Shown here piece after piece: positions 43,084-45,712 of a DNA stretch of 45,712 nt. The stretch's first letter is position 1; each line of letters begins with the position of its first letter. Position numbers and translations under genes: made by a program. Below the pieces are notes generated by a model, which ran no database searches, was not told the DNA's origin, and saw only the letters and a program-made list of their open reading frames with translations. Source of the DNA: Levilactobacillus humaensis (GTDB lineage: Bacteria > Bacillota > Bacilli > Lactobacillales > Lactobacillaceae); the NCBI RefSeq assembly GCF_024345185.1, contig NZ_BROB01000021.1, forward strand, positions 1 through 45,712, given 5' to 3'.

Positions 43084-43124
43084 AGGATAACCGCTCACGG
43101 ACAACTAGTCAAGAATCATTCTAA
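43084..43124 (-). promoter_or_regulatory. ahpC promoter with PerR-like box
   Basis: Minus-strand TTGACT (43107-43112), 17-bp spacer, TATCCT (43084-43089). TTAGAATGATTCTTG (43110-43124) overlaps the -35 and matches the Per box TTATAATNATTATAA at most positions. PerR would repress until peroxide oxidises it. Confidence 0.6.
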
Positions 43125-43198
43125 ATTAAGTCAAATTTTATAAATATATTTTTAGTTCGTTATTATAATAATCATTCGATTTTCATTAAGCTAAAGGG

Positions 43199-43227
43199 TT
43201 GCAATTGCCATGAAAATCAGTTAAACT
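43199..43227 (+). promoter_or_regulatory. Promoter of the M-box transcript
   Basis: TTGCAA, 17-bp spacer, TAAACT, about 20 bp before the riboswitch. Confidence 0.5.
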
Positions 43228-43246
43228 GAACTTGTAAGATAAATTA

Positions 43247-43403
43247 GAAGCTGTTAGGTGAGGCTCCTATACGGAAAATGCTACTGCTCAGAAACGTCGA
43301 GAAACGCCAATGAGTCAGCTGTGCAGGTCAAATTAAGGCCTGTTCTAATGTAGCTGTTATGAATCTTTAACTACGCCGTATAGTGCTAAAACTCAACGAC
43401 TGG
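43247..43403 (+). promoter_or_regulatory. M-box (ykoK) magnesium riboswitch
   Basis: The core M-box segments appear in order: GTTAGGTGAGGCTCCTATAC, GCTACTGCTCAGAAACGTC, AACGCCAATGAGTCAG, and the closing CCGTATAGTGCTAAAACTC. In M-box RNAs Mg2+ stabilises the compact form and favours a downstream terminator. The usual targets are Mg2+ transporters (mgtE, corA, mgtA), but none lies downstream here. Confidence 0.9.
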
Positions 43404-43435
43404 CAAATTCTGTACACAAATTGCTTTTTAATTGT

Positions 43436-43470
43436 GCGCTTAGCCGGTCGCGGCTAAGCGCTTTTAATTT
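43436..43470 (+). terminator. M-box expression-platform terminator
   Basis: GCGCTTAGCC pairs with GGCTAAGCGC, then TTTTAATTT. The adjacent GCAAATT/AATTGC-type segments can form the competing antiterminator. Confidence 0.75.
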
Positions 43471-43512
43471 ATTACAGTTGTCACTGTCGTTTACTTTAGG
43501 AGGTGATTGAAC

Positions 43513-43605
43513 ATGACAACGCCACATATTGATGATCCTGGAGCGAGTTATTACTCGCCGGTGGGAAAGTTATTGCCAGTTCACACCTCTTGGTTGACGC
43601 TTTGA
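43513..43605 (+). CDS. 30-codon ORF under the M-box, possible leader peptide
   Basis: Perfect ribosome site TTTAGGAGGTGATTGAAC before an ATG. The ORF encodes MTTPHIDDPGASYYSP, then VGKLLPVHTSWLTL, and stops. It contains an Asp-Asp-Pro near the N-terminus and several further prolines. Peptides with acidic-proline runs (EPDP in enterobacterial MgtL) destabilise ribosomes at low Mg2+. It contains no membrane span and matches no family I know. Codons 11-16 coincide with a GCGAGT/ACTCGC hairpin. Confidence 0.5.
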   Translation: MTTPHIDDPGASYYSPVGKLLPVHTSWLTL

Positions 43606-44104
43606 GGAGACCTGTTCTCTAGCTTTCCCGTGCCCGGACTCCGTAGCTTGATGCGGAGGTTCGACCACTAGACTTTGAACGGAATCGATTAGCTGCCTTT
43701 ATTCAGCCGTCGTTGGTGTTGCAACCAACTGTATGGCGACTGGACTTCTCTGAACTCGTTTGGAGCTAATCGGATTCGGCCACTTAATGGATAACGCAAG
43801 CTAGAGTTACATCGTTTTTCTCGGCACTATTCCACTATGATGCACTGACGTGTTAGTCCGAATAGCGTTACAACAACCGTAACCTGCTCTGCCCCTGGGG
43901 GAACCCTGAGGTGAGAAGAACTTCCCGTAACTGACGCCGTTTCAACTAGGTTGGTTTTTAATCTCTGACGGTCGATACGACTAACAACCACAATTCTAAA
44001 TTTATCTGATTACTAGCCGGTCGCCGTGACCCATGGGCTGATGGGAATCACCCCGCAAGCGCGGCAAGCCACTATTAATCGGTTATAGCTATTATCAATG
44101 TAAA
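43540..44104 (+). ncRNA. Candidate large structured RNA controlled by the M-box
   Basis: About 560 nt without a credible protein frame in any of six frames. Many local helices are seen: GCGAGT/ACTCGC (43543-43558), GGGAAAG/CTTTCCC (43563-43569 with 43623-43629), CTCCG/CGGAG (43639-43658), a 13-bp helix with one bulge (43682-43694 with 43764-43777) enclosing GTTGG/CCAAC, GTTAC/GTAAC (43867-43883), and GTGA-CCCAT/ATGGG-TCAC (44026-44051). It is bounded by the M-box terminator and a final strong terminator. Sequence family not recognised; large ornate RNAs (ROOL, GOLLD and similar) are comparators only. Confidence 0.5.
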
Positions 44105-44145
44105 AAATCCCCACAATTCTAGCCAGAATTGTGGGGATTTTTTTG
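44102..44145. terminator. Strong bidirectional terminator
   Basis: AAAAAATCCCCACAATTCT pairs with AGAATTGTGGGGATTTTTT. It ends both the M-box transcript and the convergent symporter gene. Confidence 0.95.
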
Positions 44146-44150
44146 CTTAT

Positions 44151-45437
44151 TTATTTGGCACTAGCCTCTCGTAATTTCGCAAGATAGGCCTGGCTCTTTT
44201 CTTCGCTAAATTCGTGTTCAGATTTACCAATGATAACCGTGGCTAGTGAGTTACCGACCACGTTAACGGCCGTCCGACCCATGTCGACCAACCGGTCAAT
44301 TCCGGCAATGAAGGTCAATCCGCTCATTGGCACGCCAATAGTGGAGACCGTTGCCAACAGAACCACGAAAGAGGCCCCTGGGACGCCCGCCATGCCCTTA
44401 CTGGTAATCATGAGGACCACGAGGAGGGTAATCTGTTGACCAAGGCTCAGGTGGATATGATAAGCCTGAGCGAGGAAGAGTGCCGCCAGTGATTGATAGA
44501 TCGCGGACCCATCCAGGTTAAACGTGTAACCGGTTGGAATCACAAACGACACAATCCCTTGACTCACCCCGAACTTGTCCATCTTGTCGATCAGACGGGG
44601 TAAGGCGGCTTCAGAACTCGCCGTCGAGAAGGCAAGAACAGCCTCATCCTTAATGACATAGAGTAAATCCTTCAGATGAAAGCCAAACATCCGAGCAGCA
44701 AGGCCCATGAAAACCACGATGAACAGTGCCATTGTGCCATACGCTAACACAATAAAGTAGCCCAGTGGCGCTAGGGCCGACAGTCCCATTTGTGCGATGG
44801 TAACCCCAATTAAGGCACACACCCCAATTGGTGCAGTATGCATGACCCAGTTAGTTACCCGGAACATGACTTGAGAAACAGCATCCAGGAAGTCGATGAT
44901 GACCTGGCCCTGCTTCCCAATAGCGGCAGTCCCCAGTCCAAAGAAGACGGAGAAGAAAATAATCGGCATCATGTCACCCTCAGAGAGTGACTTGAAGAAG
45001 TTGGTGGGAATAATTCCCATCAGTGTGGCCCAGATGCCAGAATCCTTAGCTGATTTTGCCGATGAGACGTATTGACTGATATCGGTACTATGTAGTTGAT
45101 GAATGTCGATAAAGTCCCCTGGGTGGAAGATATTGCCGACCAACAGCCCTAAGGCAATTGCGATGGTCGTCATAATTTCAAAGTACAGAATAGTCTTCCC
45201 ACCGACCCGGCCAAGCTTCTTGATGTCGCCCATATTGGCAATTCCAACGGTTAGACAAGACACCACGATTGGTAAAACAATCATCTGGATTAACCCGATA
45301 AACATGTTCCCAATATTCTGCATGGCCGTGATAGCAATCTTATTTTGATAGAAAATTGAACCCAGCACAATGCCGAGTACCAACCCAATCAAGATCTGCC
45401 ACCCCAAACTCAGGCGGTAGCTACGATACGTCTTCAT
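44151..45437 (-). CDS. Dicarboxylate/amino acid:cation symporter (GltP/DctA family)
   Basis: 428 residues from the ATG at 45437, spaced 7-8 bp from GGGTGG; a GTG four codons upstream is less likely. It has eight spans plus two hairpin loops. Family motifs: serine-rich FSTASSEAALP (hairpin 1), GYTFNLDGSAIYQSLAALF (span 7, NMDGT-like motif as NLDGS), SKGMAGVPGASFVVL (hairpin 2) and GIDRLVDMGRTAVNVVGN (substrate-binding span 8). It takes up glutamate, aspartate or C4-dicarboxylates with H+ or Na+. RTAVNVVGN with Arg in place of some dicarboxylate-type residues favours an acidic amino acid; inference. Confidence 0.92.
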   Translation of the reverse strand: MKTYRSYRLSLGWQILIGLVLGIVLGSIFYQNKIAITAMQNIGNMFIGLIQMIVLPIVVSCLTVGIANMGDIKKLGRVGGKTILYFEIMTTIAIALGLLVGNIFHPGDFIDIHQLHSTDISQYVSSAKSAKDSGIWATLMGIIPTNFFKSLSEGDMMPIIFFSVFFGLGTAAIGKQGQVIIDFLDAVSQVMFRVTNWVMHTAPIGVCALIGVTIAQMGLSALAPLGYFIVLAYGTMALFIVVFMGLAARMFGFHLKDLLYVIKDEAVLAFSTASSEAALPRLIDKMDKFGVSQGIVSFVIPTGYTFNLDGSAIYQSLAALFLAQAYHIHLSLGQQITLLVVLMITSKGMAGVPGASFVVLLATVSTIGVPMSGLTFIAGIDRLVDMGRTAVNVVGNSLATVIIGKSEHEFSEEKSQAYLAKLREASAK

Positions 45438-45601
45438 AATATTTTCCACCCATTTCCAAGATAGTTTGTTTTTAGGTTCTGTTTTGTTACTAAACTAACG
45501 ACAAGTACCAGCATAGCACAATGCTCTGGCCCGACCAAGGGCCCAGCATGACAACTAGAGTTAGCCCTTTACTAATTAACTCGGTCGCAAATTTAGCTTA
45601 T

Positions 45602-45632
45602 AAAAAAAGTGGAACCCATCTCTGGATTCCAC
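45602..45632 (-). terminator. rRNA operon terminator
   Basis: GTGGAA.CCA pairs with TGG.TTCCAC, followed on the minus strand by TTTTTTT, directly after the 5S gene. Confidence 0.85.
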
Positions 45633-45637
45633 AAGTC

Positions 45638-45712
45638 GCGTGGCAACGTCCTATCCTCGCAGGGGGCGATCCCCCAACTACTATCAGCGTGCTGAAGCTT
45701 AACTTCCGTGTT
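45638..45712 (-). rRNA. rrf: 5S ribosomal RNA (3' part, cut by window end)
   Basis: Minus-strand sequence AACACGGAAGTTAAGCTTC, then GTAGTTGGGGGATCGCCCCC and GGACGTTGCCACGC, is the conserved 3' two thirds of a Firmicutes 5S rRNA. The 5' end lies beyond the window. Confidence 0.95.

Follow-up and report, generated by a model that had tools for sequence, protein, structure and literature searches.

The window, by which we mean the whole 45,712-nucleotide stretch of DNA analysed here, carries on its + strand an M-box riboswitch, a mini-ORF and a long sequence without a protein-like frame, followed by a final terminator and a convergent gene (Table 1). The RF00380 covariance model recovers the M-box aptamer over its full length with 130.9 bits (E 2.7e-29), the gathering threshold being 44 bits. 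Upstream we recognise by eye a probable promoter; its hexamers show 8 of 12 consensus matches counted by hand, are absent from the output of a consensus scan, and have similar counterparts at the same position in several + strand relatives.

Table 1. Features of the M-box locus, in coordinates of the window
Feature	Position	Strand	Remarks
Probable promoter, TTGCAA-17 nt-TAAACT	43199..43227	+	by eye
M-box (Mg2+) riboswitch aptamer, RF00380	43243..43411	+	130.9 bits
Predicted antiterminator: CGACUGGC 43397-43404 (aptamer end) with GCCGGUCG 43443-43450 (terminator 5' arm)	43397..43450	+	
Riboswitch intrinsic terminator stem, then TTTT	43436..43461	+	
Shine-Dalgarno GGAGGTGA	43499..43506	+	
Mini-ORF, 30 aa, MTTPHIDDPGASYYSPVGKLLPVHTSWLTL	43513..43605	+	ATG at 43513, stop ends at 43605
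S1, within the ORF (GUGGGAAAGUUA)	43561..43572	+	
S2 (CUCUAGCUUUCCC)	43617..43629	+	can pair with S1 or S3
Three-helix arm	43686..43772	+	best covariation in the genus; helices 4-6 of the ten-helix model
S3, core 5' strand (AAGCUAGAGUUAC..UUUCUC)	43798..43822	+	helices 7 and 8 of the ten-helix model
Core domain common to seven genera	43802..43931	+	R2 match, 59.2 bits
S4, core 3' strand	43913..43932	+	helices 7 and 8 of the ten-helix model
Nearly invariant 3' motif CCCAUGGGCUGAUGGGAAUCACCCCGCAAG	44030..44059	+	
Final terminator, 19-pair stem	44102..44143	+	

The aptamer's 3' end is complementary to the 5' arm of the riboswitch terminator, with which it can form an antiterminator. Among 28 Levilactobacillus sequences this antiterminator is paired in 98.0% of cells (seven pairs counted) and has double changes in 2 pairs, where shuffles give 1.0 pairs and 40 of 500 reach 2. 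The terminator itself is paired in 98.2% of cells, with double changes in 5 of 10 pairs (Levilactobacillus). The expression platform of the M-box is thus predicted to consist of a mutually exclusive antiterminator and terminator.

Downstream of the mini-ORF we found no + strand ORF of at least 25 aa between 43605 and 44145, and the longest ORF of the - strand in this region has 54 aa (43827-43991). The sequence 43490-44145 folds with -215.9 kcal/mol, compared with -184.8 +/- 8.1 for 20 shuffles (z -3.8), and is more stable than every one of them. The Shine-Dalgarno sequence GGAGGUGA can pair with AAUCACCCC at 44046-44054; in 29 sequences this pairing has 3 G-U cells and 1 broken cell and is so nearly invariant that it gives no covariation either way. 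The conserved RNA body stops near 44060, and 44060-44100 is variable. Taken together, the locus may represent one transcript of about 0.9 kb.

An earlier note, made from the sequence alone, had described a well-conserved M-box with its terminator, a Shine-Dalgarno sequence with a 30-codon ORF, base-paired sequence lacking a protein-like frame, and a final terminator before the convergent gene. All of these elements stand: Rfam returns RF00380, exactly as had been expected; the two terminator stems, the Shine-Dalgarno sequence and the ORF lie where Table 1 places them; and the base-paired stretch has both an unusually stable fold and covariation in helix-level tests (see below). A conserved long protein frame, which the note took as speaking against its reading, was looked for and not seen.

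Distribution and covariation of the RNA

Rfam holds models for OLE, ROOL, GOLLD and HEARO, four large RNAs against which the locus was to be checked. Run on 43100-44200 with E up to 10, cmscan returned 18 matches, none of which was to any of the four. Besides the M-box no family reaches its threshold, and the sub-threshold matches lie mostly around the final terminator. A match to SpF66_sRNA (31.8 bits, gathering 42) was rejected.

By blastn, the RNA that follows the M-box has matches in 33 of 35 Levilactobacillus genomes. Identity is 96-99% in three of them and 65-80% in the rest. The matches span the first 560 nt or more in 29 of these 33 genomes and are partial in the rest. The two genomes without the RNA, G006 (72% complete) and G029 (99%), also lack a match to the M-box. 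An M-box lies directly 5' of the RNA in 33/33 genomes that have it, and in 32/33 it is the sole M-box found; part of the low-magnesium response would therefore be run by an RNA, not by transport. The exception, G015, has a second M-box before a 580-aa protein.

A covariance model of the core (R1) was searched in 397 Lactobacillaceae genomes of 40 genera and matched 85 genomes in 8 genera, or 7 once the genus g6 is set aside. These seven are Levilactobacillus, Lentilactobacillus, Secundilactobacillus, Apilactobacillus, the genus of Lactobacillus sp. Sy-1, g49 and g59. The g6 matches (3 genomes, E 3e-4 to 9e-4) were rejected, the two that were fetched both lying inside the same 347-codon frame, which we take to encode TsaD; the third genome, G154, was set aside along with them. 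Several of the 16 matches in the Apilactobacillus group (g23) are as weak as those of g6, and all 8 that were inspected are real. A second model, R2, built from all seven genera, was searched in 395 genomes of the order; the 16 that it matched belong to four of the seven genera. Moreover, a scan of named genomes for the ORF pattern gave 70 loci, of which 63 are from lactobacilli, and M-box and core were present in 19/19 of those tested and likewise in L057. The other seven (Frankia, Demequina and five metagenome bins) lack a core and are chance matches.

An M-box was found in the Levilactobacillus, Lentilactobacillus and Secundilactobacillus loci examined, and none in a scan of 12 loci of the four other genera (absent in 12/12). 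The riboswitch therefore looks like an add-on to the RNA family. The comparative data support the earlier picture of an M-box before a mini-ORF and a large structured RNA, with no transporter, and refine it in that the RNA occurs without an M-box in other genera. We regard it as nearly certain that there is a conserved family of structured RNAs, absent from Rfam, which has a mini-ORF whose start is, on evolutionary evidence, translated, and which stands behind an M-box in three genera.

For base-pairing we used alignments of 29 (A1) and 28 (A5) of the 33 Levilactobacillus loci, the omitted ones being close relatives of kept rows, and of 21 of the 23 Lentilactobacillus loci (A2), the remaining two having been found later. 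A 59-pair, ten-helix model is 97.7% paired in the 29 Levilactobacillus sequences, with double changes in 27 pairs and 107 cells (28.3 in shuffles, at most 24 when slid), and in the core 15 of 18 pairs have double changes across 61 distinct sequences from seven genera, with 158 double-changed cells (54.5 in shuffles, at most 46 when slid); the pair counts lean towards the structure both in alignment A6, which had been fitted to that of R2, and for the helices of A1, which derive from its own consensus. By eye, the core consists of UUUCUCGG, a hairpin with a UGACGU-type loop, GCUUCACC, a GNRA hairpin and the 3' strand GGGGAG. In two loci of the Apilactobacillus group (L117 and L121) the core seems to contain the hairpin with the GUGA-type loop more than once (AACAGUGAAAUGUU units), which looks like an ongoing addition of copies.

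Tree-based nulls were also applied at the level of helices. The arm at 43686-43772 has 7, 5 and 4 co-substitutions, the maximum over 40 tree-based null alignments being 3. Three helices exceed all 40 null alignments in Levilactobacillus (A1; next E 0.175) and five exceed every null in Lentilactobacillus (A2; next E 0.275); one of the five is the terminator, and another, at columns 13-16/84-87 with one pair, is probably above the null by chance. A stricter all-pairs test with a tree-based null gave 0 significant pairs in A1 and 1 in A2, in the terminator. The covariation check proposed at the outset is thus positive in helix-level tests, the all-pairs test being nearly empty.

Neighbouring genes and the transporter question

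The convergent gene (44151-45449) encodes a sodium:dicarboxylate symporter family protein (PF00375). The gene occurs in 63 of the 78 loci examined (a set with some truncated loci and one species represented twice), as would be expected if the RNA controlled the symporter in cis as an antisense through overlapping 3' ends. We think this very unlikely, given that the spacing between RNA and symporter is variable and that another gene, presumably coding for CsbD, intervenes in the Secundilactobacillus oryzae locus; moreover, vertical inheritance explains the neighbourhood. On the other side, two Apilactobacillus loci and g49 have a 6-phosphogluconate dehydrogenase gene 124-129 bases upstream of the ORF; in the window it is found about 2 kb upstream. 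We take 45612-45712 to be a 5S rRNA gene cut at the contig end, which Rfam did not call; among 20 loci of relatives, 6 have a 5S rRNA.

It is the custom of M-boxes, if not a strict rule, to precede a Mg2+ transport gene, and no such gene lies downstream in the window. Since other genera have an M-box and a leader ORF before a full or truncated P-type ATPase-like gene, the RNA could be the remnant of such a leader with a decayed magnesium transporter gene. A decaying gene would not be expected to show the covariation and near-invariant motifs of this RNA. Moreover, when 68 RNA sequences were searched by tblastn with nine proteins whose genes follow M-boxes elsewhere (by Pfam or by eye, mostly P-type ATPases or portions of such enzymes), 11 matches resulted, the best at E 0.15 over 17 aa. 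We regard such an origin as extremely improbable, in agreement with the argument already made against a decayed transporter. The window's genome has no MgtE match and one CorA, and its P-type ATPases have 31% identity at best to an MgtA-like query.

Four loci (L038, L039, L040 and L046, from g11, g12, g13 and g25) have an M-box ahead of a protein of 220-312 aa. The Pfam P-type ATPase family PF00122 matches that of L040 above the cut-off and those of L039 and L046 below it, with no match in L038. An SD-led short ORF precedes the protein in L038-L040, and the L040 leader has CCAGGAGCGACG in common with Lentilactobacillus leaders. These proteins are possibly MgtA remnants under Mg2+ control.

The mini-ORF and the strands S1 to S4

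The mini-ORF is present in 33/33 Levilactobacillus loci. Over codons 2-14 its dN/dS is 0.52 in Levilactobacillus and 0.27 in Lentilactobacillus, compared with 1.35 to 4.1 in the other two frames (1.55 and 1.35 in Levilactobacillus). For the second half the values are 0.87 and 0.82, respectively, about the same as in the other frames. Judged by these ratios, protein-level selection is confined to codons 2-14 and is absent from the 3' half, and the evolutionary evidence says that the N-terminal half is translated, which sharpens an earlier suggestion that the locus perhaps makes a peptide. An SD-led short ORF with [DE]PG[AS] is found in 18/18 accepted loci, these being 18 of 20 fetched through the core model, with ORFs listed by SD and length and not by motif. 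Distinct indel runs are a multiple of three in 2/2 cases (A1) and 3/8 cases (A2) inside the ORF and in 14/68 (A1) and 9/54 (A2) outside it, a pattern that weakly favours a coding ORF. The second half of the ORF supplies the strand GGGAAA (codons Gly-Lys), which is able to pair with UUUCCC 3' of the ORF.

The Shine-Dalgarno sequence and the N-terminal constraint would also suit a transcript that is mainly the mRNA of a small regulatory peptide, its structured part serving as an extended 3' UTR, either to stabilise the mRNA or to mask the Shine-Dalgarno sequence by pairing it with the 3' end. The complementarity of that sequence to the nearly invariant 3' motif in Levilactobacillus points the same way, as does a case from Mycobacterium in which an M-box controls the conserved uORF rv1805A (PMC12810186). 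We consider this unlikely: the C-terminal half varies in sequence and length with no protein-level constraint, and the core lies far from the ORF and is conserved in seven genera, which is more than a stabilising UTR seems to need.

In a trp-type attenuator the ORF overlaps strand 1, the pairings 1:2 and 3:4 exclude 2:3, and 3:4 is a terminator before structural genes. The ORF of the family described here likewise overlaps its strand 1, and S1:S2 with S3:S4 can form in several genera as an alternative to S2:S3; unlike in the attenuator, 3:4 encloses a folded core and is not a terminator, and no gene lies behind it.

Within Levilactobacillus, S1 reads GGGAAAG in 32/33 loci and five S1:S2 pairs (GGGAA/UUCCC), helix 2 of the ten-helix model, are kept in 29/29 sequences. 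The ten-pair S1:S2 helix scores no better than its own shuffles, in part owing to 7 rows that are aligned out of register. The S2:S3 helix (CUCUAGCUU/AAGCUAGAG) has at least 9 bp in 22 of 33 loci, at least 7 bp in 27 and at most 6 bp in 6; it is paired in 79.7% of cells with 0 double changes, and is thus only weakly supported. Without covariation, and short in some loci, it makes a switch less certain in the window itself.

In Lentilactobacillus (21 sequences) S1:S2, S2:S3 and S3:S4 are paired in 96.3%, 98.7% and 92.8% of cells. Double-changed cells number 11 for S1:S2 and 9 for S2:S3, against 4.6 and 3.2 in shuffles (0/500 as high), while the number of double-changed pairs is near that of the shuffles and not above it; for S3:S4 double changes are not significant against shuffles. 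Column 140 co-changes with column 290 (UA to CG, 7 sequences), and its pair with column 78 stays GU or GC. In this genus S1 resembles S3, so that an S2 complementary to either of them will to some extent be complementary to the other as well. Eight Apilactobacillus sequences are paired in 96.9% (S1:S2) and 94.6% (S2:S3) of cells, with covariation near that of shuffles.

Duplex energies below z -2 were found for S1:S2, S2:S3 and S3:S4, respectively, in 0, 1 and 10 of 23 Levilactobacillus sequences, in 16, 18 and 14 of 18 from Lentilactobacillus, in 3, 5 and 4 of 9 from Secundilactobacillus, and in 7/7 from Apilactobacillus for each helix. All three helices pass in g55 (2/2), g59 (1/1) and g49 (1/1). 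Exclusive helices of the trp type thus find support in Lentilactobacillus, Apilactobacillus, g49, g55 and g59, and weak support in Levilactobacillus.

The weak S2:S3 helix of Levilactobacillus is what one would expect of an RNA that acts in trans by base-pairing or protein binding and has no attenuator-like switching, its mini-ORF only clearing or protecting the 5' end. The riboswitch-controlled EutX and Rli55, as outlined in PMC7602753, are precedents. The conservation of exclusive helices in Lentilactobacillus and Apilactobacillus makes this, to our mind, rather improbable.

Proposed mechanism and relation to known systems

We favour an account in which the transcript is gated by Mg2+, perhaps twice, the folding of the core is coupled to the ORF, and the product is an RNA acting in trans; taken whole, we give it an even chance of being right. 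At low Mg2+ the aptamer would open and its 3' strand form the antiterminator, so that transcription continues; with ample Mg2+ the terminator would end it. This first step draws on sequence and covariation in the present analysis and on the function established for other M-boxes. In a second step, suggested by the anatomy, the mini-ORF would monitor translation. If ribosomes faltered or dropped off at [DE]PG at low Mg2+, as at the EPDP of MgtL, S1 would be free, S1:S2 and S3:S4 could form and the core would fold; ribosomes reaching the stop codon would cover S1 and free S2, which would pair with S3 and spoil the core. Drop-off at a single [DE]P, which is less than EPDP, is a guess. We hypothesise such ribosome-gated folding from anatomy that is good in several genera and gives weak support in the window's own. 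Lastly, we infer that the folded RNA is the product and would work in trans in the response to low Mg2+, with a regulatory or a scaffolding role. Where a genus lacks the M-box, the ORF-coupled step alone would remain.

Parts of this arrangement have counterparts elsewhere. The M-box of Mycobacterium tuberculosis pe20, according to the outline in PMC12810186, directly controls the uORF Rv1805A, whose N-terminus is conserved; most peptides of this type have proline at position 7, and a homologue independent of an M-box exists. The likeness lies in the direct control of a small ORF with a conserved N-terminus. As outlined there, however, the pe20 M-box has a protein operon downstream and a translational platform with Rho, whereas the window has an intrinsic-terminator platform and a structured RNA without a gene. 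The vitamin B12 riboswitch sRNAs EutX and Rli55 (PMC7602753) share with the window the control of a noncoding RNA by premature termination; here, too, the riboswitch is predicted to gate a transcript without a long protein frame. The window RNA differs from them in ligand, size, mini-ORF and conserved complex core. RNAs of the EutX/Rli55 type sequester a regulator by means of ANTAR sites. MgtL of mgtA, as sketched in PMC11282234, resembles the window in having a short ORF with an acidic-proline motif near its start in a low-Mg2+ leader and, as far as our proposal for the window goes, in the switching of RNA folds; its EPDP governs a Rho site before mgtA. The window ORF, in contrast, has [DE]PG, with a single [DE]P and not EPDP, and no downstream gene. 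OLE RNA, from Gram-positive bacteria, is likewise large (about 600 nt) and structured, and is linked to Mg2+ stress; the window RNA has no OLE match in Rfam at E up to 10. We know of no M-box control of OLE RNA.

Among the papers listed by searches of the open PMC literature on M-boxes and on Lactobacillus and Levilactobacillus noncoding RNAs, no title or abstract opening describes this RNA. A long noncoding RNA of L. salivarius (PMC5643018) was set aside by its megaplasmid location and not by sequence. It is a tentative conclusion, to which we give somewhat less than an even chance, that this is a new class of structured RNA of heterofermentative lactobacilli, whose folding would be gated by translation of its own mini-ORF and which would be M-box-controlled in three genera; by our searches it would be the first large M-box-controlled noncoding RNA, with one Mg2+ sensor stacked on another. 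Within the family, related genera that have this RNA with a riboswitch can be compared with others that have it without one, and the mini-ORF appears selected as protein in its first half while its second half would belong to an RNA helix. One can thereby test whether a noncoding RNA can have its folding gated by translation that is sensitive to Mg2+.

A further locus, L043 (genome G050, g17), has an M-box, a terminator, a 32-aa ORF (MTDTSNPSSSSNDIPNQRK..) and, ahead of another terminator, some 300 nt that contain no long frame. It has no R2 match, and may hold a second, diverged M-box-controlled RNA.
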